Positions 2,299 through 55,814 of a stretch of DNA of 64,000 bases are shown here, in pieces; within the stretch, counting starts at the first letter, position 1, and the number at the start of each line of letters is the position of its first letter. A model generated the notes under the pieces. It searched no databases. It had not been told where the DNA came from and saw only the letters and a program-made list of their open reading frames with translations. The translations under genes and the position numbers were made by a program. The DNA comes from Proluteimonas flavola (GTDB taxonomy: Bacteria; Pseudomonadota; Gammaproteobacteria; Xanthomonadales; Xanthomonadaceae), in contig NZ_JAIWPU010000028.1 of assembly GCF_021191705.1 (NCBI RefSeq), forward strand, positions 1-64,000, written 5' to 3'.

Positions 2299-3144
2299 TC
2301 AACGGATGAAGAATTCGACCGGCACCGCGATCTCGACCTCGTCGGCCATCGTGTCCGGGATGCGCGGCAGCGGTTCGGCGCGGTGGAAGGTCTCCAGGGC
2401 CGCGGCGTCGAGGCGCGGCGACCCCGAGGAACGCTCCAGCACCACGGACAGCACCTTGCCGGCGCGGTTCATGCGCATGCGCACGACGGCGACCCCTTCC
2501 TCGCGGCGCGCGCGCGCCGCACCGGGATAGCGCCGGAATTCCGCCAGTCGCGCCATGACGCGCGCCTCCCAGCGGTCGTCGACCTGGCCCGCAAGCTGCG
2601 GTCCCGGCGGCGCCGGCGGGCTGGGTGGCGCGGCGGCCAGCGAATCGAGCTGCGCCGGAGCGACGGCAGCCGTGGCGGAGGCGTCGCTGGCGGCCGGCAG
2701 CGGCGCATCGGGCAACGGCGGCAGCGGTTCGGGCTGCACGGCGTCCACCCGGTCCGGTGCGTCGTCCCGCACAGGTTCCGGCGGCTCGGGATCCGGCGAC
2801 GCCCGCCGGGCATCGGGCGTCGGCGCCGGGGCCACACGCGTCTCCACCGGTACTGGTGGTGTCGCGGGCGGCAGGAACACCACGCTGATCACCGCATCGG
2901 GCGGCGGCGGCAGCGGCGGCGGCTCACGCAGCGTCCAGCCGGACAGTGCGAACACGGCGACCACGACATGCAACGCGACCGTCGCCAGCAGGGCGATGCC
3001 GCCAGGGATGCGCTCGCCCGGCGGGGTGGCCGGCGCGGCGAATCGCAGCGCACCGGCCTGCCGGCCGGGTACCCCGGTTTCCTCCGGGACGCCTTCGGGG
3101 ACGGTGCCGACGGCGTCCCGGTGGCGATCCGACGGTGCGTCCAT
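2299..3144 (-). CDS. tonB: TonB family energy-transducing protein
   Basis: This 281-residue protein should carry proton-motive energy from the inner membrane to outer-membrane receptors. It has an extended cytoplasmic N-terminus of about 45 residues, one membrane segment (about 49-70, ending in VFALSGW), a long Pro/Ala/Asp-rich periplasmic spacer, and a C-terminal TonB domain containing RRYPGAARARREEG and a typical ending VPVEFFIR. The ATG lies 5 bases after the receptor stop, so the two are probably co-transcribed and this TonB may be dedicated to that receptor. The same frame stays open far upstream through the receptor gene, so the start was chosen from the TonB domain layout and spacing. 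Confidence 0.88.
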   Translation of the reverse strand: MDAPSDRHRDAVGTVPEGVPEETGVPGRQAGALRFAAPATPPGERIPGGIALLATVALHVVVAVFALSGWTLREPPPLPPPPDAVISVVFLPPATPPVPVETRVAPAPTPDARRASPDPEPPEPVRDDAPDRVDAVQPEPLPPLPDAPLPAASDASATAAVAPAQLDSLAAAPPSPPAPPGPQLAGQVDDRWEARVMARLAEFRRYPGAARARREEGVAVVRMRMNRAGKVLSVVLERSSGSPRLDAAALETFHRAEPLPRIPDTMADEVEIAVPVEFFIR

Positions 3145-3149
3145 CGCGC

Positions 3150-5963
3150 TCAGAACGACAGCGTGAAGCCGACGCGGAACGTGCGTCCCGGCGCCGGGGT
3201 CAGGCCGACCAGCAGCGCGTCGGCGTAGTAGCGGTCGGTGAGGTTGTCGATGTTGAAGTCGAAGCTCAGCCGCTCGCTGACCTCGTAGCTGGCGAACAGG
3301 TCGACGACGGTGTGCGCCGACCACGCCACCGTCGCGCGCCCGGCCCCGGCGAAGTCCATGTCCGGCCGCTCGTCGTTGTAGACAGCGCGCGCGCCGAGCG
3401 TCAGCGCCTCGGCGAACAGCCGTGTGCCCAGGGTCGCGCTGGCCGAACGCTCCGGCGGAACCTGCAGGTCGGCATAGCCGATGCCCTGCCGGGTGCATTT
3501 CTCGAAGCCGCTCGATGGATTCTCCGGGGTATAGGCGCAGTAGTTGATGTCGGTGTACCAGTTGACCGAGAACGCGCCGAACGCCGTGCCGCGGTCGTAC
3601 TCGAGCGACAGTTCGGCGCCGCGGAAACGCGCGCTCTCGATGTTGACGGTCATGAAGCCGCCACGGGTCAGGTAGTCGCGGATGCTGTTGTCGAAATAGG
3701 CGGCGTGCATGCGCAGCTGGTCGCCTGCGCCGAACACGTCGCGGCGGTCGAAGTTGATGCCGGCCTCCCGGCTGCGGCTGCGCTCGGGCCTGAACTCGAC
3801 CAGCGGGTTCTGCTGGTCGAGCGAGAAGCCGGACGTGCTCTCGAACAGGCTCGGGCCGCGGATCGCCTCGGCGTAGCGCAGGTAGAACTGCACGCCGTCC
3901 CAGGGCGTGAACATCGCCGCGACGATCGGCGAGAGGCCGTTGCCGCGCTGCTGCATGTGCAGCCAGTCGGTGTAGACGAGCTGGTTGTTCCCGTCGCGGC
4001 CGAGCGCCTTGCGCGTGAGCTTGCGGTCGAACGAATGCCAGCGGGTGTAGCGCAGCGCGCCGTCGAGCCGCAGCCAGTCCCTGGGCTCCCACTGCAGCGA
4101 CACGAACGCGCTCTGCTCGTCGCGCTTGCCGTCGCGGCGCTGGATGCCGAGCAGGTCGGCGCCGATGCCGATCTCCTCGCCGATGTCGACCAGCGCGTCG
4201 TTGACGTCCTGGTAACTCGTATTGTCGGAATGCACGTTTTCCTTGGTCATCGATGCGCCGTAGCGCAGCGTCAGCGCGCCGAACCCGCCCCACCAGCGGC
4301 TGGTGTTGTCGACGTCGAAACCGGTGCGCTCGGAGAACTCGGGACTGGCCGGATCGATGCGGATGTTGGGGTTGTACTCGGCGAACCACGCGAGCAGGCC
4401 GTAGTAGAGGTTGCGCTCGGCCTCGAGCTCGGTACGCCAGAGATTGACGCGCAGGTCGAGCAGGTCGAGATCGGCGGGGTCGAGGCGGTAGCGCGCGGTC
4501 CAGGTGTCGATGGCGACGTGGCTTTCCAGACCCTGCTTGAAGCCTTCGCCGCGGATGATCTCCGACGGCATCATGTCGCCGAAATCGCTGTCGAAGCGGT
4601 TGAAGCCGAGGTCGAGCGTCTGTCCGTCTCCCCAGCGCAGCGCGCCCTTGAGCAGGTACGAGGTGTTGTCCTGGGCGCTGTTGACCACCTGTTCGCCGGC
4701 ACGGAAGCGGGTGTCGCCTTGCCAGGTCACCTGGTCGCGGTACACGGTGCCGCCACGCACGTGGGTCTCGGTCGGCACGACGACGACGCGCGCGGCATTG
4801 CCGCGGGTGCCGGCGAAGTAGTTGCCGGTGCTGCGCCGGGCATAGGCCGCGACGAGATCGACGTGGTCCCAGCGCCTGGCCAGCGCGATGCTGCCGCCGC
4901 CGTCGGTCGGCGCCAGCAACCCGGGACGATCGCCCGGCATCGGCGCCTGCTCGAACGCCGAATCGGGGATCGGCCGTGGCTGGTTGCTGGCGCTGTTGCA
5001 GAAACCCGGATATCCCGCGTTGGCCGTGCAACCGCTCACCCAGCTGCCGAAGTTGCTGGTATGGAGACCGCCCAGGGTGCCCTCCGGCGGCGGCGAGGCC
5101 GAATTGCCGCGCAGCTCGCCGCGCAGGCGCACGCCGAAGTCCTCGCCCTCGCGCAGGATGTCGTCGGCGCCGATCGTGCGCACGACGACCACGCCGCCGG
5201 TCGCGCCGACGCCTTCTGGGCCGGCGCTCGGCCCTTTCTCGATCGTCATGCTGCCGAGCAGGTCGGGATCGAGATAGGTGCGCGAGGCCACGCCGGCGTA
5301 GCCCCGGTAAACCACGGTCGACTGCTGGCTGCCGTCGACGACCACCGGCACCCGGTTCATGCCCTGCATGCCGCGGATGTTGACGTCGAGCGCGCCGCTG
5401 TTGCGGTTCTCGCCGGCCAGCACGCCCGGCGTGCCGCCGAGCATGTCGCCCGGCGAGGTGCCGCGGAAGCGCTGGATGCGTTCGCGCGAGAAGTGGGCAT
5501 ACGAGCCCGGTGCGGTGTACGGCAGGTCCTCGGGCGGCGTGTCGCTGCCGGGTGCGCTCCCGGGCAGCGCGCCGCCTTCCACGCGCAGCGTGCCGATGCG
5601 TAGCGGCCCGTCGTCGCCGGCAGCGGCATCGGCCTGGGCGGGCCGTACCGTCAATGCACCGCTGGGCGTGACCTGCAGGTGCAGGCCGCTGCCCTGCAGC
5701 GCGCGCCGCGCGGCGTCCTCGACGGTCATCGCGCCGGTCACCGCGGGTGCCTGGCGGCCCTGCACCAGCGCCGGATCGATCGAGATCACGCGTCCGCCAT
5801 CGACCGCGATGCGGTTGAGGGTCGCGCCGAGCGGGCCGGACGGGATCGTGTACGCGTGCACGGACGTGACGGGGGACTGCGCCAGCGCCGCCGGCAGCGA
5901 CAGCGACAGGACCAGCGCGAGGGCGAGGCGCCGCCGGGTGGGACGGGACAGGATCGGGGACAT
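3150..5963 (-). CDS. TonB-dependent outer-membrane receptor with N-terminal signalling (STN) domain, FecA type
   Basis: The 937-residue protein is an outer-membrane importer, most likely for an iron chelate. The chosen ATG gives a good signal peptide (about 1-28, cleavage after PAALA). Next comes a secretin/TonB short N-terminal domain (about 33-105), which in the FecA family contacts FecR and signals substrate binding. A plug domain (GDMLGGTPGVLAGENRNSG, NIRGMQGMNRVPVVVDG) and a long beta-barrel ending in aromatic GFTLSF follow. The preceding genes are fecI and fecR, and a tonB follows. The substrate (siderophore, citrate or heme) cannot be read from the sequence. An in-frame ATG 25 codons upstream is possible but would bury the signal peptide. 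Confidence 0.93.
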   Translation of the reverse strand: MSPILSRPTRRRLALALVLSLSLPAALAQSPVTSVHAYTIPSGPLGATLNRIAVDGGRVISIDPALVQGRQAPAVTGAMTVEDAARRALQGSGLHLQVTPSGALTVRPAQADAAAGDDGPLRIGTLRVEGGALPGSAPGSDTPPEDLPYTAPGSYAHFSRERIQRFRGTSPGDMLGGTPGVLAGENRNSGALDVNIRGMQGMNRVPVVVDGSQQSTVVYRGYAGVASRTYLDPDLLGSMTIEKGPSAGPEGVGATGGVVVVRTIGADDILREGEDFGVRLRGELRGNSASPPPEGTLGGLHTSNFGSWVSGCTANAGYPGFCNSASNQPRPIPDSAFEQAPMPGDRPGLLAPTDGGGSIALARRWDHVDLVAAYARRSTGNYFAGTRGNAARVVVVPTETHVRGGTVYRDQVTWQGDTRFRAGEQVVNSAQDNTSYLLKGALRWGDGQTLDLGFNRFDSDFGDMMPSEIIRGEGFKQGLESHVAIDTWTARYRLDPADLDLLDLRVNLWRTELEAERNLYYGLLAWFAEYNPNIRIDPASPEFSERTGFDVDNTSRWWGGFGALTLRYGASMTKENVHSDNTSYQDVNDALVDIGEEIGIGADLLGIQRRDGKRDEQSAFVSLQWEPRDWLRLDGALRYTRWHSFDRKLTRKALGRDGNNQLVYTDWLHMQQRGNGLSPIVAAMFTPWDGVQFYLRYAEAIRGPSLFESTSGFSLDQQNPLVEFRPERSRSREAGINFDRRDVFGAGDQLRMHAAYFDNSIRDYLTRGGFMTVNIESARFRGAELSLEYDRGTAFGAFSVNWYTDINYCAYTPENPSSGFEKCTRQGIGYADLQVPPERSASATLGTRLFAEALTLGARAVYNDERPDMDFAGAGRATVAWSAHTVVDLFASYEVSERLSFDFNIDNLTDRYYADALLVGLTPAPGRTFRVGFTLSF

Positions 5964-6034
5964 TCGGGAGGCTCTCCGCAATGGGGGTCGCCTTCCCTGT
6001 GTCGCGAGGGCACGCGAAGCGGACACGGTCCCGG

Positions 6035-6991
6035 TCAATGCCCGCGTTCGATGACGGTGACCGGCCCGAACCGGCGGACCTGCAGCGGCAGGGTCTCGGC
6101 GAGCGCGGCCAGTGCACGGCCGCTGTCGTCGAGCGGGAACACGCCCTGCACCCGCAGCGCGGCGGCGTCGGGCGCCAGCCGCAGCAGGCCGTGGCGGTAC
6201 GACCGCAGCCGGTCGACGACCTCGGCCAGTGGCGCGTCGAGCACCGCCAGGCGGCCGTCGATCCAGTCGGCCATGCCGGCCGCGCCGTGTGCGAGACGGT
6301 GGGTGCCGCGCGCATCGGCGTCGAACGCGTCGCCGGGACGCAATGCGATGCGCGCACCGGCCGCGTCCAGGACCGCATCACCCTCGAACAGCGCGACCCG
6401 GTCATGGCCGTCGGCGCGCAGCAGCAGGCAGCGCCCGGCACCGACGTCGAGCCGCGCATGGCCGCCGGCAACGCGCCATGATGGCGGGTTGCCGGGCACG
6501 GCCTGCAGCAGCAGGCACCCCTGGCGCAGATGCAGCCGCCGCCCGCCACCATCGAGATTCACCGCCGAACGGGCATCGAGGGTCAGCACGCTGCCGTCGT
6601 CGAGCGTCCAACTGCGCCGCTGCGCGGTCGCGGTCTGCAGGTCGGCGGTCCAGCCGCGCCACGGCGATGCACGGTCGGCCACGAAACCGCCGCCGGCGCC
6701 GAGCACGCACAGGCCTGCGAGGCCTCGCAGGACCCGCCGCCGCGGCCGCAACAGGGTCTCGCGGGCCGCACGGGCGCCTTCCGGACTGCGCGTTGCGAGG
6801 CGCCGGACCTGCGCGAACGGCGCGGTCGCCGCCTGCAGTCGCATCCAGGCCGCCGCGTGGCGGCGGTCGGCGGCCAGCCAGGCCGCGAACGCCGGCGGCG
6901 CATCGGCCACGTCGGCCATGGGGCCGAGCCTCAGCATCCAGTCGATCGCGGCCTCGGCGACCGCATCGCGCCCGGCGCCCGCCGCGTTCAT
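6035..6991 (-). CDS. FecR family transmembrane sigma regulator
   Basis: This 318-residue anti-sigma/sigma-regulator passes the receptor signal from periplasm to cytoplasm. The first 45 residues form the cytoplasmic Trp-containing FecR N-terminal domain (AIDWMLRLG, FAAWLAADRRHAAAWMRL). One membrane segment lies near residues 87-103, followed by the periplasmic FecR domain (WTLDDGSVLTLDARSAVNLD) and a C-terminal secretin-like part expected to meet the receptor STN domain. Its ATG overlaps the stop of the sigma gene by four bases (ATGA), so translation is probably coupled. A 71-base gap separates it from the receptor gene and could hold a FecI-dependent promoter, though I cannot identify one. 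Confidence 0.9.
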   Translation of the reverse strand: MNAAGAGRDAVAEAAIDWMLRLGPMADVADAPPAFAAWLAADRRHAAAWMRLQAATAPFAQVRRLATRSPEGARAARETLLRPRRRVLRGLAGLCVLGAGGGFVADRASPWRGWTADLQTATAQRRSWTLDDGSVLTLDARSAVNLDGGGRRLHLRQGCLLLQAVPGNPPSWRVAGGHARLDVGAGRCLLLRADGHDRVALFEGDAVLDAAGARIALRPGDAFDADARGTHRLAHGAAGMADWIDGRLAVLDAPLAEVVDRLRSYRHGLLRLAPDAAALRVQGVFPLDDSGRALAALAETLPLQVRRFGPVTVIERGH

Positions 6992-7494
6992 GCGAGACCG
7001 GCGCCGGCCAGCCAGCAGCGGCGCAACGCATCGCGCAGGTAGCGACGCACGGTCCGGCTGGAGACGCCAAGGCGGGCGGCGATCGCGGCCTGATCGAGAC
7101 CGTCGAGCTGCAGCAGCAGGAAGGCTTCGCGCGCACCCTGCGGCAGGCCCGCGAGCAGGCGGTCGATCGCGGCGATCGCCTCCAGCAGCGCGACCTGCTC
7201 TTCCGCCGACGGGGCGAACGCGTCCGGCAGCGCGCGCATGCGGTCGAGCCAGGCCGATTCGAGATCGCGCCGGCGCCGCAGGTGGAACAGCAGCCGCGAC
7301 GCGATCGTCGTCAGGTAGGCACGCGGCTCGCGGATCGCCGCCGGATCGATACGCGAGACCAGCACCTGGCAGAACGCCTCGGCGGCCAGGTCCTCGGCAT
7401 CCCGGCGATCGGCGACGCGCCCGCGCAGGCGCTGCAGCAGCCAGCCGTGGTGATGGCCATAGAACCGGGCGAGCGGCGAATCGGCGGCGGACAT
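6988..7494 (-). CDS. ECF sigma factor, FecI type
   Basis: A 168-residue extracytoplasmic-function sigma factor. Region 2 is visible (DAEDLAAEAFCQVLVSR, ARAYLTTIASRL-like segment), as is region 4 with a helix-turn-helix (LPQGAREAFLLLQLDGLDQ, AIAARLGVSSRTVRRYL). It should direct polymerase to the receptor gene when FecR is activated. The ATG at 7494 was chosen because the family begins close to this point and a Fur box starts 16 bases upstream. The open frame continues upstream without coding character. It is the first gene of a minus-strand unit fecI-fecR-receptor-tonB. Confidence 0.92.
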   Translation of the reverse strand: MSAADSPLARFYGHHHGWLLQRLRGRVADRRDAEDLAAEAFCQVLVSRIDPAAIREPRAYLTTIASRLLFHLRRRRDLESAWLDRMRALPDAFAPSAEEQVALLEAIAAIDRLLAGLPQGAREAFLLLQLDGLDQAAIAARLGVSSRTVRRYLRDALRRCWLAGAGLA

Positions 7495-7509
7495 TGCGGC
7501 ACAAGAAAC

Positions 7510-7528
7510 GAGAATGATTCCTATTCTT
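7510..7528. promoter_or_regulatory. Fur box
   Basis: The 19 bases GAGAATGATTCCTATTCTT match the Fur consensus (GATAATGATWATCATTATC) at most positions and retain its dyad. The site is 16 bases upstream of the fecI-type ATG, where a bound Fur repressor would block transcription in high iron. It lies in a 179-base divergent region shared with the exporter operon. Confidence 0.75.
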
Positions 7529-7555
7529 TCACATCCTCGCGACACGCGCCCGCGT

Positions 7556-7592
7556 GGACGTCCGGTCACTTGCCTCGGACACGTCCGGACAC
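7556..7592. promoter_or_regulatory. Candidate activator-binding repeats upstream of the sigma-54 promoter
   Basis: Two copies of GTCCGGNCAC occur 23 bases apart (7560-7569 and 7583-7592). Each overlaps a small dyad, GGACGTCC at 7556-7563 and GGAC-AC-GTCC at 7577-7586. They lie 35-70 bases upstream of the -24 element. This would suit an enhancer site for the NtrC-type regulator encoded by the same operon, though closer than the common 100-150 bases. This is inference from position and symmetry. Confidence 0.4.
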
Positions 7593-7623
7593 CTTTAAAT
7601 CCATTCATTTCAATGACTTGAGT

Positions 7624-7640
7624 TTGGCACGATGCATGCT
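7624..7640 (+). promoter_or_regulatory. Sigma-54 (-24/-12) promoter
   Basis: The sequence TTGGCACGATGCATGCT fits the sigma-54 consensus YTGGCACGRNNNTTGCW with one mismatch. The invariant GG (7626-7627) and GC (7638-7639) are separated by exactly 10 bases. Transcription would start near 7651, 23 bases before the exporter ATG at 7674. A sigma-54 activator with an intact GAYTGA loop is encoded in the same operon. Confidence 0.75.
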
Positions 7641-7673
7641 TGAACCGAAATATCTCCCGCCGACACCACCCGT

Positions 7674-8987
7674 ATGCGCCACATCCAGCCTTCGATCCGC
7701 CCCAGCGGCATCCGCGACACCTCCGAACAGGACACCGTCCGCACCGGGGGGGCACCCGGCCGCGCACGCCTGACACGCTGGCTCGTCGTCGGCGGGGTCG
7801 TGCTGGCGGTCCTCGCCGGCCTGGCCTGGCTCGTCGCCGCCTGGGCCGGCGGCGCGAATTCGGTCGACGCGCAGCGCCTGCGCTTCGCGGAGGTCACCCG
7901 CGGCGACCTGGTCCGCGACATCGCGGCCGAGGGGCGGGTCATCGCCGCCAACAGTCCCACGCTCTATGCGATCTCCGGCGGCATGCTGACGCTGAAGGTC
8001 GTGGCCGGCGATCGTGTCGAGCGCGGCCAGGCACTGGCCGAGATCGACAGCCCGGAACTGCGCAGCAAGCTCGCGCAGGAAGAGGCCACGCTCGCCAGTT
8101 ACGAGGCCGAGGCCGGACGCGCCGCGCTCGATGCGCAGTTGCGCCGCGCCGAAGCGCGCAAGGTGCTCGACCAGGCGCAGATCGACCGCACCGCGGCGCA
8201 ACGCGACCTGCAGCGTTACCAGCGCGCATTCGAGGGCGGCGCGGTGGCGCAGGTCGACCTGGCGCGCGCGCAGGACACGCTGCAGAAGACCGAGATCGGC
8301 GTATCCGCCGCCAACGAGGATCTCGGCCTGCAGGGGCGCGGCGCGAGTCTGGACACGCGCAACAAGCAGCTCGTCGCCGAACGCCAGCGCAGCGTGGTGA
8401 TGGAGATGCGGCGCCAGGTCGAGGCGCTGACGCTGCGTGCGCCATTCGACGGCATCGTCGGCCAGGTGCAGGCGGTGCAGAGCAGCAACGTCGCCGCGAA
8501 CGCGGCGGTGCTGTCGGTCGTGGACCTGTCGGTGTTCGAGGTCGAGATCCGTGTGCCGGAAAGCTTCGCGCGCGACCTGGAAATCGGCATGCCGGCCGAA
8601 CTGCGCAGCGTCGGCACGACGTATCCGGCGAAGGTGTCGGCAGTCTCGCCCGAGGTGGTCAATGGCGAAGTCGTCGCGCGGCTGCGCTTCGACGCGGGCA
8701 GCCAGCCCCCCGGGCTGCGCCAGAGCCAGCGCCTGACCGCGCGCATCCTGCTCGACACCCGCAAGGACGTGCTGATGGTCGCGCGCGGTCCGTTCCTGGA
8801 CCAGGAAGGCGGCAGCGCGGCCTATGTGATGGACGGCAACACGGCAGTGCGCAGGCCGATCACGGCCGGCGCCAGCAGCCTGTCGGCAGTGGAAATCGTC
8901 GATGGCCTGCAACCCGGCGAACGGGTCGTCGTCGCCGGCACCGATCTGTTCGACAACGCGGAACGCATCCGCATCTCGGGACTCTGA
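7674..8987 (+). CDS. Periplasmic adaptor (membrane fusion protein, HlyD/MacA family) of an ABC exporter
   Basis: A 437-residue adaptor anchored by one N-terminal membrane helix (about 34-56, containing LVVGGVVLAVLAGLAWLV). A biotinyl-lipoyl-like half-motif (GDRVERGQALAEIDSPELRS) follows, then a long alpha-hairpin coiled coil (about 125-215, rich in Arg/Gln/Ala/Glu), the second lipoyl half (LRAPFDGIVGQVQ) and beta-barrel domains. It should bridge the inner-membrane permeases to an outer-membrane channel; no TolC-like gene is present here. It is the first gene of the unit and sits behind the sigma-54 promoter. No strong Shine-Dalgarno is seen before the ATG, so a start slightly downstream is possible. 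Confidence 0.88.
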   Translation: MRHIQPSIRPSGIRDTSEQDTVRTGGAPGRARLTRWLVVGGVVLAVLAGLAWLVAAWAGGANSVDAQRLRFAEVTRGDLVRDIAAEGRVIAANSPTLYAISGGMLTLKVVAGDRVERGQALAEIDSPELRSKLAQEEATLASYEAEAGRAALDAQLRRAEARKVLDQAQIDRTAAQRDLQRYQRAFEGGAVAQVDLARAQDTLQKTEIGVSAANEDLGLQGRGASLDTRNKQLVAERQRSVVMEMRRQVEALTLRAPFDGIVGQVQAVQSSNVAANAAVLSVVDLSVFEVEIRVPESFARDLEIGMPAELRSVGTTYPAKVSAVSPEVVNGEVVARLRFDAGSQPPGLRQSQRLTARILLDTRKDVLMVARGPFLDQEGGSAAYVMDGNTAVRRPITAGASSLSAVEIVDGLQPGERVVVAGTDLFDNAERIRISGL

Positions 8988-8989
8988 CC

Positions 8990-9190
8990 ATGCACACCTA
9001 CCTCGATTGCCCGTTCCCCACCGCCTGGACCGCCGACGAACTCGCCAGCGCCGTACCGCGCCGGCTGTCGGCTGCATTCGCGGCCGGCATTCCATTCGAC
9101 GCTTCGTCCGGCGCATGCGTCCCCGCCTTCTTACGCGCACGCCGGCGTCCGGTCGACCACGGCCTGCCGATCCTGTTCCGCGTCCGCTGA
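8990..9190 (+). CDS. Possible 66-residue protein inside the exporter operon
   Basis: An open frame starts with ATG two bases after the adaptor stop and fills most of the 251-base gap before the ATPase gene. By hand count about 80% of its third codon positions are G or C, in keeping with coding sequence here. The product (beginning MHTYLDCPFPTAWTADELAS) has two Cys, a basic C-terminus and no clear membrane helix or signal peptide. I do not recognise a family and see no Shine-Dalgarno of its own, though translational coupling is possible. If it is not a gene, the stretch is an unusually long spacer for this operon. Confidence 0.4.
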   Translation: MHTYLDCPFPTAWTADELASAVPRRLSAAFAAGIPFDASSGACVPAFLRARRRPVDHGLPILFRVR

Positions 9191-9238
9191 GCGCGACGCG
9201 TCTCTCCTCTCTCCAGTCACGCCACAGGACACATTCCC

Positions 9239-9961
<723 letters not shown>

Positions 9962-9972
9962 GGAGATCCGGC

Positions 9973-11274
9973 ATGTTCGGTTACTACCTGCAGCTCGCGC
10001 TGCGCAGCTTCCGCAACAGCAAGATGCTCACCGCGTTGATGGTGCTGGCGATCGCGCTGGGCATCGGCGCGAGCATGACCACGCTGACCGTGTTCCATGT
10101 GCTGTCGGGCGATCCGATTCCCGACAAGAGCGATCGTCTGTTCTACGTGCAGCTCGACCCCGAAAGCATGCATGGCTACGTCGCCGACAGCGAGCCGAGC
10201 CGCAACATGACGCGCTTCGATTCGGAGACCCTGCTGCGCGAGGCACGCGGCAAGCGCCAGGCGTTCATGACCGGCGGCTTCGTTGCGATCGAGCCGGACG
10301 GTGCGCGTGCCCCGTTCTTCACCGATGCGCGCTACAGCTCGTCGGAATTCTTCGACATGTTCGACGCGCCCATGGCCTATGGACGCGGCTGGACGAAGGA
10401 AGACGACGCCGCGGGCGCGCGCGTGGCGGTGATCTCCGAGGAGACCAACCAGACCGTGTTCGGCGGGGGCGACAGCACCGGCAAGACCTTGCGTATGAGC
10501 GGCAGCGCGTTCCGCGTGATCGGCGTGCTCGCACCATGGCGGCCGACGCCGCGGTTCTGGGACCTCAATCTCGACGGCTTCGAGTCGCTGGAATCGGTGT
10601 TCGTGCCCTTCTCGGCGGCGATGGACACCAAGCTCTCGCGCATGGGCAGCATGAGCTGCTGGGGCGAGTCGAGCGGCATCGATTCCAATTCGCTCAATGC
10701 ACCCTGCTCGTGGCTGCAGTACTGGGTGGAACTGGAATCGCCCGGCGATGCAGCCGCCTACCGCGATTATCTGGAGTCCTACTCGGAGCAGCAGCGCACG
10801 GCGGGTCGCTTCCAGCGCCCGGTCAACGTGCGCCTGCGCGACGTGCGCGCGCATTTGGACCATGCCCAGGTCGTGCCGAGCGACGTGCGCCTGCAGGTGT
10901 GGCTGGCACTGGGATTCCTGTTGGTCTGTCTGGTCAACACCGTCGGTCTGCTGCTGGCGAAGAGCCTGCGGCGCGCGTCGGAGATCGGCGTCCGCCGGGC
11001 GCTGGGCGCATCCCGCCGGGCGATCTTCGCTCAGGTCCTGGTCGAAGCGGGTGCGATCGGTGTGGCGGGCGGCATCTGCGGGCTGGGGCTGGCACTGCTC
11101 GGCCTGTGGGCCGTGCGCCAGAACCCGAGCACCTATGCGGAACTTGCGCGGCTCGACGCCTCGATGCTTCTGCTGACTTTCGGCCTGTCGGTCACCGCCA
11201 GCCTGCTCGCCGGCCTGCTGCCCGCCTGGCGCGCCATGCAGGTCACGCCGGCGATCCAGCTCAAGTCGCAGTGA
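9973..11274 (+). CDS. ABC transporter permease, MacB/FtsX family (first of two)
   Basis: A 433-residue permease with one N-terminal membrane helix (about 16-35, LTALMVLAIALGIGASMTTL), a large periplasmic MacB-PCD-like domain to about residue 305, and three C-terminal helices. The cytoplasmic loop SEIGVRRALGASRRAIFAQV is the family coupling region that meets the ATPase. It pairs with a second, different permease downstream, so the transporter is probably a heterodimer. GGAG precedes the ATG closely. Confidence 0.92.
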   Translation: MFGYYLQLALRSFRNSKMLTALMVLAIALGIGASMTTLTVFHVLSGDPIPDKSDRLFYVQLDPESMHGYVADSEPSRNMTRFDSETLLREARGKRQAFMTGGFVAIEPDGARAPFFTDARYSSSEFFDMFDAPMAYGRGWTKEDDAAGARVAVISEETNQTVFGGGDSTGKTLRMSGSAFRVIGVLAPWRPTPRFWDLNLDGFESLESVFVPFSAAMDTKLSRMGSMSCWGESSGIDSNSLNAPCSWLQYWVELESPGDAAAYRDYLESYSEQQRTAGRFQRPVNVRLRDVRAHLDHAQVVPSDVRLQVWLALGFLLVCLVNTVGLLLAKSLRRASEIGVRRALGASRRAIFAQVLVEAGAIGVAGGICGLGLALLGLWAVRQNPSTYAELARLDASMLLLTFGLSVTASLLAGLLPAWRAMQVTPAIQLKSQ

Positions 11275-11359
11275 CCGGTGCCGTCGAACCGATCTGAATC
11301 CCACCCCCGTCGCCGTCATCCCCGCCTGCGCGGACATGATGGCAGACACTGGAGACTCC

Positions 11360-12583
11360 ATGGACATCCGCCCCATCCTCTCGACGCTGCGCCGGCACAA
11401 GACCGCAGCGACGCTGATCGTCGTCGAGATCGCGCTCGCCTGCGCGATCATCTGCAATGCGATCTATCTCATCGATCGCCGCATCGACCACATGTCCCGG
11501 CCCAGCGGCGCAACCGAGGACGAGATCGTGCATCTCCAGATGCCGACCGTGAACACCGATGGCAACACCGACCTCGACGCCTTCGTTGCGCGGGACCTGG
11601 CCGCGCTGCGTGCGATTCCCGGTGTGAAGCACGTGGCCAGCGCCACGCAGATCCCCTACGGCAACAGCAGCTCGACCAGCGGCGTGCGGCTCAAGGCGGA
11701 CCAGGTGGACAACACCCTCGTCTCGTCGCCCTATATGGGCAGCGAGGACCTGTTCGACACCATGGGACTGCGTCTGGTGGCAGGGCGCAAGTTCAATGCC
11801 GACGAGTACGTGGACATGGCCACACTCGACGCCGGAGGCGACGACGCGAAAGTGCCGGCAGTGATCATCAACCAGGCGATGGCAGCGTCTCTGTTTCCAG
11901 GGCAGGACGCGGTCGGCAAGCACATCTACAGCTGGGGCAACGCGCCGATGCCGATCGTGGGCGTAGTGGAGACGCTGTCACGGCCCAACGACGGTTCGGG
12001 GCCGGGCAACGCGACCATGCTGATGCCGGTGCGCGTTGCCTCGCCCAATCTCAACTATCTGCTGCGCACCGATCCGTCGCAGCGACATGAGGTGCTGGCG
12101 GCCGCCGAAGCTGCTCTGAAGCAGATCGATCCCAATCGCGTCACCGTCAACAGCAACCTGCTCAGCGAACTGCGCGAGAAGTACTACCGCGAGGATCGCG
12201 CGATGGCGATGCTGCTGGTCGTGGTGTGCATCGCGCTGCTGGTCGTCACCGCGCTCGGCATCGTCGGCCTGGCCAGCTTCTGGGTGCAGCAACGCACCAA
12301 GCAGATCGGCATCCGACGCGCGCTCGGCGCGACGCGCGGGCAGATCCTGCGCTACTTCCAGGTCGAGAATTTCCTGCTCGCGTCGATCGGCATCGCGCTG
12401 GGCATGCTGCTGGCCTACGGGCTCAACCAGCTGCTCATGTCGCGCTACGAGCTCGGCCGGTTGCCGCTGATGTACCTGCCGGCCGGCGCTGTGGTGTTGT
12501 GGCTGCTCGGACAGGTCGCGGTGTACTGGCCCGCGCGGCGCGCGGCCTCGGTGCCGCCGGCCGTGGCGACGCGGAGCATCTGA
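11360..12583 (+). CDS. ABC transporter permease, MacB/FtsX family (second of two)
   Basis: A 407-residue relative of the preceding permease with the same plan: one N-terminal helix (KTAATLIVVEIALACAIICN), a periplasmic domain, and three C-terminal helices. The coupling loop is KQIGIRRALGATRGQILRYF. The ATG at 11360 was chosen over an in-frame ATG eight codons earlier because GGAG lies about six bases upstream and the first permease also begins close to its helix. It ends just before a strong hairpin that separates the transport genes from the regulators. Confidence 0.92.
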   Translation: MDIRPILSTLRRHKTAATLIVVEIALACAIICNAIYLIDRRIDHMSRPSGATEDEIVHLQMPTVNTDGNTDLDAFVARDLAALRAIPGVKHVASATQIPYGNSSSTSGVRLKADQVDNTLVSSPYMGSEDLFDTMGLRLVAGRKFNADEYVDMATLDAGGDDAKVPAVIINQAMAASLFPGQDAVGKHIYSWGNAPMPIVGVVETLSRPNDGSGPGNATMLMPVRVASPNLNYLLRTDPSQRHEVLAAAEAALKQIDPNRVTVNSNLLSELREKYYREDRAMAMLLVVVCIALLVVTALGIVGLASFWVQQRTKQIGIRRALGATRGQILRYFQVENFLLASIGIALGMLLAYGLNQLLMSRYELGRLPLMYLPAGAVVLWLLGQVAVYWPARRAASVPPAVATRSI

Positions 12584-12588
12584 CCAAT

Positions 12589-12619
12589 GTCGCCGGTTGC
12601 GCGCGTCGCAACCGGCGAC
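12589..12619. repeat. Perfect 13-bp inverted repeat (intercistronic hairpin)
   Basis: GTCGCCGGTTGCG (12589-12601) is the exact reverse complement of CGCAACCGGCGAC (12607-12619), with a five-base loop CGCGT. It begins five bases after the second permease stop and ends 48 bases before the response-regulator ATG. No T-run follows, so it is more likely an RNA-stabilising or partial-termination hairpin than a full intrinsic terminator. Confidence 0.85.
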
Positions 12620-12667
12620 GACCATGCCTGTCGATCACGCACCTTCCCGCCGGATGCCCAGCCACTG

Positions 12668-14008
12668 ATGCCCACGATCCTCGTCATCGACGACAACCCC
12701 GCCGTCGCCACCGCGCTGGAGGTGCTGTTCTCGCTGCACGACATCGCCTGCGAACACGCGGCGACGCCCGAGGCCGGCATTGCCCGCTTGCAGGCGGGCG
12801 GTATCGATCTGGTCGTGCAGGACATGAATTTCCACGCCGACACCACGTCCGGCGAAGAAGGCATCGCCCTGTTCCACGCGATCCGGCGCTTCGATCCCGA
12901 TCTGCCGGTCGTGCTGCTGACCGCGTGGACGCGCCTGGAATCGGCGGTGGAACTGATCCGCTCGGGGGCGGCCGACTACCTCGGAAAACCCTGGGACGAC
13001 GGCAAGCTGCTGGCCACGGTCAACACGCTGCTGGAGCTGTCGTCGACGCGCCGGGCACTGGATGCACGCACGCGCGACGATCGCCGCCGCCGCGATGCGC
13101 TGGTGCAGGGCCGGGATCTACGCGGCCTGGTCTGGGACGATCCGGCCAGCGAAACCACACTGTCGCTCGCATTGCAGGTCGCCGCGTCGATGCTGCCGGT
13201 GCTGATCACCGGCCCCAACGGCAGCGGCAAGGAAAAGTACGCCGAGATCCTGCACGCGAACTCGAATGTCCGCGGCGGCCCGTTCGTCGCGGTCAACTGC
13301 GGCGCACTGCCCCATGATCTCGTCGAAGCGGAACTGTTCGGCGCAGAAGCCGGCGCCTACACCGGCGCGACCCGGTCTCGCGAAGGCAAGTTCGAAGCGG
13401 CCGATGGCGGCACGCTGTTCCTCGACGAAGTCGGCACCCTGCCGCCCGCCGGGCAGGTCAAGCTGCTGCGCGTGCTGGAGACGGGGCGCTTCGAACGGCT
13501 GGGCGGCAATCGCGAACGCAGCGTGTCGGTGCGCGTGCTCAGCGCGACCAATGCCGACCTGCAGGCGATGATCGCCGATGGCCGTTTTCGGGAGGATCTC
13601 TACTATCGGCTCAACGGCATCGAACTGCGCCTGCCGCCGCTGGCACAACGGCCGCGCGACATCCTGCCGCTCGCACGGCATTTCCTCGATGGCCGCAAAC
13701 CGCTGACGGCAGGCGCGGAACGCGCCCTGCTGCAGCACGGCTGGCCGGGCAACGTGCGCGAACTGCGCAATGTGATCCAGCGCGCGGAACTGCTGGCGCG
13801 CGAGGCGCAGATCGACGCGCGCGATCTCGCGTTGCCCGCCGCGCCCGTTGCGGCCGTCGAAGTCGATGCCGTCGAGCCGGATCGCGCCGAGATCGAGGCC
13901 GCACTCGCGCGCAGCGGCGGCGTGCTCGCACAGGCCGCGACCGAACTCGGGCTGTCGAGGCAGGCGCTGTACCGGCGCCTCGACCGCCTCGGCATCCGTC
14001 GCGACTGA
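12668..14008 (+). CDS. NtrC-family sigma-54-dependent response regulator
   Basis: A 446-residue activator with three domains. The receiver (1-120) has acidic pair D8-D9, phospho-acceptor D52 (VVQDMNF), and the conserved Thr (LLTAW) and Lys (LGKPWDD). The AAA+ domain has Walker [10 protein letters not shown] (unusual for the common GESGTGKE), sigma-54 contact loop GAYTGA and Walker [13 protein letters not shown]-terminal Fis-type helix-turn-helix ([19 protein letters not shown]) binds DNA. An intact GAYTGA means it should act with sigma-54, and a good sigma-54 promoter heads the operon. The ATG at 12668 gives the canonical receiver start; the frame is open further upstream. The kinase ATG follows its stop by one base. 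Confidence 0.93.
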
Positions 14009-14009
14009 C

Positions 14010-15323
14010 ATGCGCTGGCAACAGCGGCTGCCGTTGACGGGCGTGGTCATCGCGATCGCACTGGTGCACGTCGCGCTGGGCGCGGGATTCGCGTTGCTGC
14101 TGCTGCGCTGGTGGTCGCCATGGGTGGCAGTCGTGGGCGCCACGGCTTGTGTGCTGCCCTCGCTCGCCTTGTCGCTGCAACGCGCATTCGCGCCGTCGCA
14201 TGCGCTGTTCCGGGCACTCGCCGGCACCGTGGCGAGCTATCGCGACAGCGACTACGGCTTCAGCGTGACGTGGCAGGGCGGCGGTGCGCTGGGTGAACTG
14301 GTCGCCGCGCACAACGAGCTGGGCGAAACCCTGCGCGCGCAGCGTCTGTCGCTGGTGCAGCGCGAACTGCTCCTCGACACGATGGTGCAGAACACGCCGG
14401 TCGCGATGCTGCTGCTCGATCCCGGCGACCGCGTGGCGCACGCGAACCTCGCGGCGCGCCGCGCGCTCGGCGGCGGTCGCAAGCTGGAAGGCCAGGCGTT
14501 CTCCGCCTTGCTCGCCGACGCGCCGCCAGCACTCGCCGACGCGTTCGCCCGCGGCGGCGACGGACTGTTCACCATCGGCGACGGCGAGACCGAGGAGATC
14601 CATCACCTGTCGCGCCGGCACTTCCGATTGAACGGCCGGCGCCACGAACTGCTGCTGCTGCGGCAGATGACCACCGAACTGCGGCGCCAGGAAGTGCAGA
14701 CCTGGAAGAAGGTCATCCGCGTCATCAGCCACGAACTCAACAATTCGCTGGCGCCGATCGCCTCGCTCGCGCATTCGGGCAGCGAGCTGCTGCGCCGCGG
14801 TCAGACCGCGCGCCTGCCGGAGGCGCTGCGCACGATCGAGGAACGCGCGCGGCATCTGGAAGGCTTCATCCGCGGCTACGCGCATTTCGCCAAGCTGCCG
14901 GCGCCGCGTCGCGAACCGGTCCGCTGGCGCGCGTTCCTCGACCAGCTGCGCTCGCAGGTGCCGTTCGTGGACGTCGGTCCGCTGGACGATGCGTTCACCG
15001 CGTCCTTCGATGCCGCCCAGGTCGAGCAGGCGCTGTTGAACCTGCTGCGCAATGCGCACGAGGCCGATGGCGATCCCGATGCGGTCGCGGTCGGACTGCG
15101 TCGCACCGTGGATGGCTGGCGGATCGACGTGCTCGATCGCGGGCCCGGCATGAACGAGGCGGTGCTGGCGAACGCGCTGTTGCCGTTCTATTCGACCAAG
15201 CGCAACGGCACCGGCCTCGGGCTTGCGCTCGCGCGCGAGATCGCCGAAGCGCACGGTGGCCGCATCGCCCTGCTCAACCGCGAGGGGGGCGGGCTCTGCG
15301 TGTCGCTGGTCTTGCCGGACTGA
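14010..15323 (+). CDS. Sensor histidine kinase, NtrY-like
   Basis: A 437-residue kinase with two adjacent membrane helices (about 7-30 and 33-52) and almost no periplasmic loop. A HAMP-like linker and a PAS-type domain (about 120-190, NTPVAMLLLDPGDRVAHANL) follow. The H-box is VISHELNNSLAPIASL with His near 241. The ATPase carries N-box LLNLLRNAHEA, G1 DRGPGM and G2 GTGLGLALARE. The lack of a periplasmic sensor suggests that it senses a membrane or cytoplasmic cue, or the transporter itself. It starts one base after the response-regulator stop and is the last gene of the exporter unit. Confidence 0.92.
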   Translation: MRWQQRLPLTGVVIAIALVHVALGAGFALLLLRWWSPWVAVVGATACVLPSLALSLQRAFAPSHALFRALAGTVASYRDSDYGFSVTWQGGGALGELVAAHNELGETLRAQRLSLVQRELLLDTMVQNTPVAMLLLDPGDRVAHANLAARRALGGGRKLEGQAFSALLADAPPALADAFARGGDGLFTIGDGETEEIHHLSRRHFRLNGRRHELLLLRQMTTELRRQEVQTWKKVIRVISHELNNSLAPIASLAHSGSELLRRGQTARLPEALRTIEERARHLEGFIRGYAHFAKLPAPRREPVRWRAFLDQLRSQVPFVDVGPLDDAFTASFDAAQVEQALLNLLRNAHEADGDPDAVAVGLRRTVDGWRIDVLDRGPGMNEAVLANALLPFYSTKRNGTGLGLALAREIAEAHGGRIALLNREGGGLCVSLVLPD

Positions 15324-15329
15324 GCGCTC

Positions 15330-15402
15330 GTGCAGGAGCGCGCTTGCGCGCGACGGCGCCTTGCCGCTGATGCCCCGTCGCGCGCGAGCGCGCTCCTACA
15401 GG
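15330..15402. repeat. REP-type hairpin element
   Basis: An imperfect inverted repeat with left arm around GCAGGAGCGCGCTTGCGCG and right arm around CGCGAGCGCGCTCCTAC. It fills the gap between the convergent kinase and glmU genes. Related elements occur at 28533-28598, 36548-36613 and 53676-53743. Confidence 0.8.
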
Positions 15403-53675: not shown

Positions 53676-53743
53676 TGTAGGAGCGCGCTCGCGCGCGAAG
53701 GGCTTTGCCGGTGAAGCCAATGGCGCGCAAGCGCGCTCCTGCA
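53676..53743. repeat. REP-type hairpin element
   Basis: TGTAGGAGCGCGCTCGCGCG on the left and GCGCGCAAGCGCGCTCCTGC on the right, flanked by the terminators of two convergent genes. Confidence 0.82.
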
Positions 53744-53801: not shown

Positions 53802-55814
53802 TCAACGCACCACGTTGAGGAAGTGGATATGCCGCTGGTACTGGTCGAGCACGTCGTGGATCAGCTCGTCCTTGCGCCAGCCCATCACGTCGTAATCCTG
53901 GCCGCCTTCGCGCAGGTGGACTTCACCGCGATAGAAGCGGTCGGTTTCCTTCCGGCGACGGCGCGGGTCCTCGAACATGAAGCTCGGCGGCTCGTACGGC
54001 ACCGGACGCACGGAGTAGAAGAAGTCCATCTCCTCGCCGTGGCCGACCTGCAGCCAGATGCGGCCGTCCTCGCCTTCTTCCACCGCGACATCGAGGGACT
54101 GCTTGCGCAGTTCCGCGGCCACGTCCTCGAACGCCGGCTTGACCTGCGTCTGCAGGAACGCGAGCACTTCCTTCTGCATCGGATGGTGGGCGAGCGAGCG
54201 CAGGCGCGCCTTCCAGTCGCCGCCCCCTCCGATGCCGACCGGTGCGATGCGCGCGTCGCGCAGGCTGTCGCGCTTGACCACTTCCAGACGCATCGCCCGC
54301 ACCATGCCCCAGCACATCAGGATCATGACCACGGTGAACGGCAGCGCGGAAGCGATCGTCGCCGCCTGCAGCGCGGCCAGGCCACCGGCGAGCAGAAGGG
54401 CGATCGCGACCACACCTTCGGCCAGCGCCCAGAAGATGCGCTGCCACACCGGCGATTCCTCCTCGCCCTTCGTCGTGAGCATGTCGATCACCAGCGAGCC
54501 GGAGTCGGACGACGTCACGAAGAAGATCACCACCAATGCGGTCGCCAGACCCGAGGTGATCGTCGAGAACGGCAGGTTCTCGAGGAACTGGAAGATCGCA
54601 ACCGAACTGTCGGCCGCCACCGCATCGACGAGCTGCGTCGCCCCGTCGACCATGACCATGTGCAGCGCGGTGTTGCCGTAGATGGTCATCCACAGGAAGG
54701 TGAAGCCCAGCGGCACCAGCAGCACGCCGACGACGAACTCGCGGATCGTGCGGCCACGCGAGATGCGCGCGATGAACATGCCGACGAACGGGGACCAGGC
54801 GATCCACCAGCCCCAGTAGAACAGCGTCCAGCCGCCCAGCCAGGTGCCGCGGGACTCGTAGGCGTACAGGTTGAACGTCATCGCGAACACGTTCGAGATG
54901 TACATGCCGGTGTTCTGCACGAAGGTCTGCATCAGATAGACCGTCGGGCCGGCGATCAGCACGAAGGCCAGCAGCGCCACCGCCATGATCATGTTGAGCT
55001 CGGACAGACGGCGCACGCCCTTGTCCAGGCCGCTGGCCACCGAACCCGTCGCGATCAGCGTGATCACGCTGATCAGGATCACCTGCGTCGTCGTGCCGAC
55101 CGGCATGTCGAACAGATAGTTCAGACCGGCGTTGATCTGGATCACGCCCAGACCCAGCGACGTCGCCAGACCGAAGATCGTGCCGAGCACGGCGAAGGTG
55201 TCGACCGCGTGGCCGATCGGGCCGTGGATGCGATCGCCGATCAGTGGATACAGCGACGACCGGATGCGCAGCGGCAGGCCGTGGCGGTAGGCGAAGTACG
55301 CCAGCGACAGCGCGACCACCGCGTAGATCGCCCACGCGTGGATGCCCCAGTGGAAGAAGGTGATGCGCATCGCCTGCCGCGCGGCGGCGACCGTCTGCGC
55401 ATCGCCGACCGGCGGTTCGGCGTAATGCATGATCGGCTCGGCGACACCGAAGAACATCAGGCCGATGCCCATGCCGGCGGCGAACAGCATCGCGAACCAG
55501 GTCGCGTAGCTGTAATCGGGACTGCTGTGGTCGGGGCCGAGTTTCAGGCGGCCGAAGCCGCTGATCGCGATGCCGACGATGAAGACAAGGAAGCCGGCGA
55601 CCGCGAGCACGGTGAACCAGCCCGCCTCGTCGGCCACCCAGGCCTTGGCATGGCCGAACATCGTGTCCATCGCCTCGGGCGCGAGGAAGGACATCACGAT
55701 CAGCGCCAGCACGATCAGTGCCGACGGATAGAACACGGGACCGAGGATGCGCGAGTGCCAGCGTTCTGGCGGCGCGGCCGGACCGGTGTCCGGACGCACG
55801 GTGGGATCGTTCAT
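53802..55814 (-). CDS. betT: BCCT family transporter, BetT-like (choline/betaine)
   Basis: A 670-residue transporter with twelve helices and a long cytoplasmic C-terminal domain of about 140 residues (from RDSLRDARIAPVG to HIHFLNVVR), as in E. coli BetT where the tail senses osmotic state. The family signature WWIAWSPFVGMFIARISRGR is intact, and the substrate-box segment is FFHWGIHAWAIYAVVALSLA. GMGIGLMFFGVAEP points to proton or sodium coupling of the choline-glycine betaine type. AGGA precedes the ATG. A hairpin sits in the leader. No bet dehydrogenase genes are nearby. Confidence 0.92.
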   Translation of the reverse strand: MNDPTVRPDTGPAAPPERWHSRILGPVFYPSALIVLALIVMSFLAPEAMDTMFGHAKAWVADEAGWFTVLAVAGFLVFIVGIAISGFGRLKLGPDHSSPDYSYATWFAMLFAAGMGIGLMFFGVAEPIMHYAEPPVGDAQTVAAARQAMRITFFHWGIHAWAIYAVVALSLAYFAYRHGLPLRIRSSLYPLIGDRIHGPIGHAVDTFAVLGTIFGLATSLGLGVIQINAGLNYLFDMPVGTTTQVILISVITLIATGSVASGLDKGVRRLSELNMIMAVALLAFVLIAGPTVYLMQTFVQNTGMYISNVFAMTFNLYAYESRGTWLGGWTLFYWGWWIAWSPFVGMFIARISRGRTIREFVVGVLLVPLGFTFLWMTIYGNTALHMVMVDGATQLVDAVAADSSVAIFQFLENLPFSTITSGLATALVVIFFVTSSDSGSLVIDMLTTKGEEESPVWQRIFWALAEGVVAIALLLAGGLAALQAATIASALPFTVVMILMCWGMVRAMRLEVVKRDSLRDARIAPVGIGGGGDWKARLRSLAHHPMQKEVLAFLQTQVKPAFEDVAAELRKQSLDVAVEEGEDGRIWLQVGHGEEMDFFYSVRPVPYEPPSFMFEDPRRRRKETDRFYRGEVHLREGGQDYDVMGWRKDELIHDVLDQYQRHIHFLNVVR

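Follow-up and report, generated by a model that had tools for sequence, protein, structure and literature searches.

A predicted sigma-54 exporter circuit in Proluteimonas flavola with a small conserved gene and discordant permeases

What does it mean for an exporter operon to carry its own activator, its own sensor kinase and its own sigma-54 promoter? The question is raised by seven genes on one strand, at 7674-15323, in a 64,000-nucleotide stretch of the Proluteimonas flavola genome (contig NZ_JAIWPU010000028.1), the whole of which is called the window here. An earlier account made from the letters alone (the sequence-only reading) had described a -24/-12 promoter directly before an operon of adaptor, ATPase, two MacB-type permeases, an NtrC-type activator with an intact GAYTGA motif and its kinase. 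Domain searches and a comparison of related loci confirm this predicted self-contained unit, and we consider it likely to be an envelope exporter that sets its own level through a local kinase, activator and sigma-54 promoter. The exporter unit of the earlier account stands; what it missed are a small conserved open reading frame (ORF), an element resembling a binding site for integration host factor (IHF), and permease pairs that are exchanged and multiplied among relatives. The features of the locus are as follows.

7556..7592, plus strand: predicted activator half-sites, GTCCG at 7560, CGGAC at 7576, GTCCG at 7583 and CGGAC at 7586
7608..7620, plus strand: IHF-like element TTTCAATGACTTG, between the half-sites and the -24 box
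7625..7640, plus strand: sigma-54 -24/-12 element TGGCACGATGCATGCT, with a predicted start at 7651 and the adaptor ATG at 7674
7674..8987, plus strand: MacA-like periplasmic adaptor, 437 aa, single N-terminal membrane helix (domain search)
8990..9190, plus strand: gene of a small protein, 66 aa (66 codons), without a Pfam or NCBIfam match
9239..9961, plus strand: ATP-binding cassette (ABC) ATPase, 240 aa (domain search)
9973..11274, plus strand: MacB-type permease 1, 433 aa, matching the first half of ADOP
11360..12583, plus strand: MacB-type permease 2, matching the second half of ADOP (open from 11336; start picked by eye)
12589..12619, plus strand: GC-rich hairpin of 13 bp without a T run, between permease 2 and activator
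12668..14008, plus strand: NtrC-type activator with receiver (QDMNF), AAA+ domain (GAYTGA) and Fis-type helix-turn-helix (open from 12587)
14010..15323, plus strand: histidine kinase, 437 aa, HATPase_c above its cut-off, HisKA and PAS_8 below theirs

The -24/-12 element has the spacing GG (7626-7627), N10, GC (7638-7639) and lies one mismatch from TGGCACGN4TTGCW, which we take to be the sigma-54 consensus. In the window the strict pattern TGGCAYGN5TGC occurs once on the plus strand and nowhere on the minus strand. We accept the promoter assignment because the site is conserved in relatives: the strict pattern stands ahead of the operon in 75 of the 76 loci in which 120 nt or more of DNA precedes the adaptor (a set that leaves out L142, which has only 23 nt there), and the remaining locus, L085, is one base off with TGGCACACTTTCTGC. 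Across the 2.1 Mb of these 76 loci plus the window, the pattern occurs 82 times in total on both strands. Both the exact GG-N10-GC site before the operon and the search upstream of orthologous operons, which the sequence-only reading had proposed as a check, are borne out.

Upstream of this promoter the related loci share further elements. In the stretch from 25 to 130 bp ahead of the -24 box, 75 loci contain 388 CGGAC/GTCCG half-sites, where 200 dinucleotide shuffles gave a mean of 54.8 (standard deviation 7.4, maximum 81). Dyads with a two-base spacing number 45, in 30 of the 75 loci (shuffle mean 0.2, maximum 2), and many congeners have an element near GTGTCCGN2CGGACAC, often doubled, 21 bp apart. 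In the window, the GTCCG at 7560 falls within GTCCGGTCAC (7560-7569), and the GTCCG at 7583 and CGGAC at 7586 fall within GTCCGGACAC (7583-7592); GTCCGGNCAC occurs on the plus strand at 7560 and 7583 and once on the minus strand, at 55786. Direct repeats in this region had been put forward as candidate activator sites. Their half-sites are indeed conserved, but the form seen in many relatives is a palindromic dyad and not a direct repeat. We searched 15 congeneric genomes, including the window's own, for TGTCCGN2CGGACA; ten of them hold 17 distinct dyads, 16 at the operon promoter and one elsewhere (G010, C30), so that the circuit looks local. Together with the conserved layout, this placement supports a single local unit made up of the exporter, its promoter and activator sites, and the two regulators. 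The IHF-like element TTTCAATGACTTG is one mismatch from WATCAANNNNTTR, presumably the IHF consensus. With at most one mismatch it is found in 55 of the 75 loci, whereas 100 shuffles preserving nothing but base content gave 1.3 on average and 6 at most, and among these 55 its offset from the T of the -24 box is -17 in 35 loci and -18 in 16.

The genes themselves are separated by 2, 48, 11, 85, 84 and 1 nt, with starts as chosen in this analysis, which is consistent with a single operon. An HlyD-type adaptor, ABC_tran, two MacB_PCD plus FtsX permeases, Response_reg with Sigma54_activat and HTH_8, and HATPase_c all score above their Pfam cut-offs, and the six genes named earlier are thus as described; the gene at 8990-9190 is a seventh that had been overlooked. 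The activator probably starts at 12668 rather than 12587, because the receiver match begins at residue 31 and most relatives align from about residue 19-28. This start leaves the 84-nt gap that holds the hairpin, which was considered as a shared element and rejected, a stem of at least 8 bp being present in 20 of 82 relatives. The adaptor's closest named matches are from Lysobacteraceae bacterium PS02340 (89%) and Luteimonas sp. 9C (88%).

By its receiver, its AAA+ domain with GA[FY]TGA and its Fis-type helix-turn-helix, the activator belongs to the two-component NtrC-type sigma-54 activators (bacterial enhancer-binding proteins). Its receiver motif is QDMNF in 84 of 86 activator loci and ADMNF in the other 2, GAYTGA is likewise kept in 84 of 86, and an orthologue (E<=1e-120) is present in 210 of 247 family genomes and 47 of 54 genera. 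Hydropathy gives the kinase two hydrophobic helices, at about residues 5-35 and 36-57, with almost no loop between them; the hydrophobic stretches are adjacent in the same way in all of the 12 loci inspected out of 53, the window among them. Kinases without a periplasmic domain commonly respond to the membrane or to a transporter they work with. As this kinase leaves no room for such a domain, we infer transporter- or membrane-linked sensing, and it probably reads the state of one or the other. The 4.2 Mb genome encodes a sigma-54 activator-interacting domain, above cut-off, in two genes. It also contains a second module of the same gene order with its own -24/-12 site (C88, locus L083); the activator there, at 42%, reads GAYTDA and not GAYTGA, and the similar loci L081 and L079 read GAYTDA and GAFTDA.

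How does this exporter compare with known systems? In sequence, the adaptor matches MacA and the permeases MacB, the latter with the MacB_PCD and FtsX domains, and a MacA-like adaptor together with MacB_PCD/FtsX permeases makes it a candidate tripartite exporter of the MacAB type. It differs from MacAB-TolC in having a separate ATPase, two distinct permeases and its own sigma-54 regulation. None of the operon's proteins reaches the MacA and MacB model cut-offs; MacB proper, a fused ATPase-permease, requires 966 bits, compared to 213.5 for the ATPase, 35.5 for permease 1 and 63.8 for permease 2. Nor is there a single ADOP protein (TIGR03434, cut-off 622.3), the two proteins scoring 181.7 and 219.9 bits. 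The best NCBIfam model of the ATPase is DarD of the darobactin exporter DarBCD, at 259.6 bits under a cut-off of 375, and none of the DarC, DarD and DarB equivalog cut-offs is reached. In BceAB-BceRS flux-sensing modules, a two-helix-hairpin kinase without a periplasmic domain stands beside a MacB-superfamily ABC transporter. The kinase here is likewise of the intramembrane-sensing kind, by hydropathy only. However, the regulator is NtrC-type instead of OmpR-type, a MacA-type adaptor is present, and two 4-helix permeases take the place of one large BceB, to which the match is weak (E 0.0006); neither an OmpR-type regulator nor a BceB-type permease was found in the operon.

The permeases have a history of their own. 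Relatives carry from one to at least five permease pairs behind a single ATPase: in 77 loci with adaptor, ATPase and activator there is one pair in 61, two in 10, three in 2 and four in 4, and four more loci, cut before the adaptor, have at least four or five. With the third pair of L091, the window's two permeases share 84 and 84% identity, against 72% for the activator. With L033 the figures are 83 and 77% and an activator at 95%, and with L035 they are 65 and 59% and an activator at 87%. The window joins L033, L034 and L035/L036 in the tree of the remaining genes (the chassis), and the third pairs of L090-L093 in the permease tree. Both trees come from quick searches that omitted 57 of 86 loci, and the permease tree carries warnings of long branches (L089_1, L085_2) and of uneven composition in four rows. 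Approximately unbiased (AU) tests on the permease tree reject a constraint uniting the window with L033 (p 2.65e-5), with L033 and L034 (3.6e-8), and with L035 and L036 in addition (1.6e-4); on the chassis tree they reject the window with L090-L093 (1.9e-22) and a group of L035, L036, L039 and L047 (2.3e-5). Because the groups were picked with identities and trees already in view, the p values carry less weight than they otherwise would, but the log-likelihood gaps span 68 to 568. Judged by these trees, the window's permease pair is inherited separately from the rest of the operon. We read the discordance as exchange of the pair, through transfer or through gain, loss or conversion among arrays, and exchange between lineages would be expected if substrates change. 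Elsewhere in the same genome, two more adjacent MacB-type permease matches lie at C1:19980-22521, with 43% and 31% to permease 1.

The small ORF begins 2 nt past the adaptor stop, and in most of the relatives listed it overlaps or abuts that stop. Pfam and NCBIfam searches gave no match for the window's small protein or for 56 family members. Within the family it was found in 68 (profile A1) or 69 (profile A3) of 247 genomes, in 20 of 54 genera; profile A3 has 56 rows, drawn from a separate listing of 69 small ORFs of which 14 are omitted, plus the window's own. In a class-wide sample of 274 genomes, the window's own genome was the sole match. All but two of the 69 genomes (67) also have the activator, and the exceptions, G067 and G074, are 72% and 82% complete. 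Profile matches occur in 27 of 34 congeneric loci with the whole region, L043 being counted although its copy is interrupted. The position of the ORF is very stable: all 20 loci fetched as small-ORF matches have it between adaptor and ATPase, and so do 34 of the 35 carriers among 78 named loci with both genes, with L222 having it just before the adaptor. That count uses a 25-bit cut and leaves out L186 and L198, which have no ATPase on the contig. In L129, at 3006-3504, the ORF is present as a tandem duplicate between adaptor and ATPase.

The consensus of the small protein is firmest at its ends, with W..LADAVP.RL at the N-terminus and LP..FRV at the C-terminus. The proportion of nonsynonymous differences (pN) is below that of synonymous differences (pS) in 15 of 15 pairs, as expected for a coding gene under weak constraint. 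The gene nevertheless changes several times faster than the adjoining adaptor and ATPase; a gene-by-gene comparison of 8 pairs puts its pN at roughly 3- to 12-fold the adaptor's, but in some pairs (e.g. L040/L041) it is no higher than about the level of the permeases. Its pS is near that of its neighbours in most of these pairs and clearly higher in L035/L036. Across 38 single-cassette loci (without L043), its divergence tracks that of adaptor, activator and kinase (partial r 0.53, 0/500 permutations) and not that of the permeases (partial r 0.07, 73/500 permutations). Following the chassis and not the permeases argues against a permease-matched substrate and for an accessory or feedback role. 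The predicted model of the protein is mostly unstructured (mean predicted local distance difference test score 61.4, predicted template modelling score 0.24), the best hit of its profile among solved structures has an E of 0.22, which we regard as chance, and the gap between the small ORF and the ATPase gives no signal of RNA structure (z 0.42).

Taken as a circuit, these parts suggest the following course of events. The kinase would respond to a condition of the inner membrane or of the transporter and phosphorylate the NtrC-type activator, whose binding sites would be the paired CGGAC half-sites located about 30-80 bp ahead of the -24 box. A bend at the IHF-like element could then deliver the activator to sigma-54 polymerase poised at 7625-7640. 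The resulting transcript would yield a tripartite MacAB-like pump of adaptor, ATPase dimer and permease heterodimer, along with the small protein and further activator and kinase. Since the activator gene lies downstream of the operon promoter, this gene order suggests that the exporter may be under positive feedback. The pump most likely clears peptide- or lipid-like amphiphiles from the periplasm or membrane.

Several observations weigh against this reading. Genome-wide, TGGCAYGN5TGC is not enriched (30 sites compared to 36 for a reversed control), which makes a lone promoter match weak evidence. The window's genome (G000) has its sole exact dyad elsewhere (C76) and none at the operon, the dyad spacing being altered in the window's subclade, where the two-base spacing of many relatives is not kept; G020 shows the same arrangement, with a single dyad away from the operon promoter, another three of the 15 genomes lack the dyad altogether, and a reversed-pattern control gives 5 sites in the same 15. 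The activators of L069 and L071 read GAYTSA, yet their -24/-12 site is retained. In L040, L041, L045, L048 and L118, about 0.5-2 kb separates the last permease from the activator and could hold another promoter. Finally, a defensive role is suggested solely by the analogy with MacAB and by permease turnover.

The part played by the small protein bears directly on what the pump carries. A refinement of the exporter reading, which we find plausible though short of probable, makes it a cytoplasmic accessory of the chassis, either as a link between the ATPase and the adaptor or permeases or as a feedback factor acting on the kinase or the activator. Its place directly after the adaptor stop, its divergence with the chassis and its conserved ends would fit, while its absence from many otherwise complete-looking operons, a rate of change unusual in a core subunit and the low-confidence model speak against it. 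The pump might instead secrete a product of the cell, with the small ORF as that product or its precursor, such as a peptide pheromone or an antibacterial peptide. The ORF does keep to the operon (between adaptor and ATPase in 34 of 35 named loci, just ahead of the adaptor in the other), is found in the family only, is duplicated in one genome and is among the operon's fastest-changing genes, and the ATPase's nearest model, below cut-off, is that of a darobactin exporter. A cognate substrate should travel with its permease, however, and this one does not (0.07 vs 0.53). The ORF is also absent from 7 of 34 congeneric operons and from 33 of 34 named Xanthomonas, Stenotrophomonas and Pseudoxanthomonas loci (only L190, a metagenome bin, carries it), no modification enzyme is seen inside the operon, and the protein model is mostly unstructured at low confidence, so we think secretion of a product improbable.

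We are equally doubtful that the locus encodes a housekeeping exporter, releasing lipoproteins or envelope lipids as LolCDE does, whose adjacency to glmS and glmU would reflect coordination with cell-wall synthesis. A divergent glmS-like start, recognised by what we take to be its motif MCGIVG, lies at most 900 nt from the promoter in 55 of 75 loci, a glmU-like ORF follows the operon in the window, and the activator orthologue is widely conserved. Against this, 37 of the 247 family genomes lack the activator at cut-off, and permease pairs that multiply and are discordant are not expected of a housekeeping Lol system. A wider form of the exporter reading, which we offer tentatively and hold to be rather less than probable, is an adaptable pump of the envelope in which ATPase, adaptor, kinase, activator and a new, rapidly evolving small protein make up a family-wide chassis under one private sigma-54 promoter, with interchangeable, multiplied permease cassettes and a kinase that reads pump activity. 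The small protein would then be a new kind of subunit, a feedback peptide or an exported signal.

A general link between sigma-54 and FtsX-like permeases is already published: a 2025 survey (PMC12316311) found that FtsX-like permeases (COG0577) are over-represented behind predicted sigma-54 promoters in gamma-Proteobacteria, Opitutia and Bacteroidia. The permease class and its predicted sigma-54 control are the same as here. What the available part of that survey gives is a class-level enrichment count, with no operon, activator site, IHF-like element, small ORF or permease exchange, and the matches listed in the open literature, as far as their text was accessible, make no mention of this operon, its dyad, its small ORF or the exchange of its permeases. 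The locus is a clear, testable example of predicted sigma-54 control of a pump through an apparently private promoter, in which activator site, bending element and promoter are all legible across dozens of species. Permease pairs swapped under a fixed regulator suggest that the regulator senses no single fixed substrate, and such decoupling bears on how pumps keep pace with changing toxins. The small ORF, in turn, represents a protein family missing from Pfam and NCBIfam.

In the window, the operon has further neighbours. The glmS-like start is at 2229 on the minus strand, and the glmU-like ORF downstream, on the strand opposite to the operon, has NTP_transferase and hexapeptide repeats. Divergent from the operon, at 3150-7494 on the minus strand, lie an extracytoplasmic function (ECF) sigma gene (6991-7494), a FecR-domain ORF and a TonB-dependent receptor, and a stretch resembling a Fur box, judged by eye, precedes the ECF sigma set at 7511-7530. 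Since 55 of 75 loci keep the glmS-like start at most 900 nt from the promoter, this iron-uptake set may have been inserted between the glmS-like gene and the operon. Inverted repeats of AGGAGCGCGC..., which by eye resemble repetitive extragenic palindromes, are found at 15334-15397, just past the kinase gene, and at 53679-53740.

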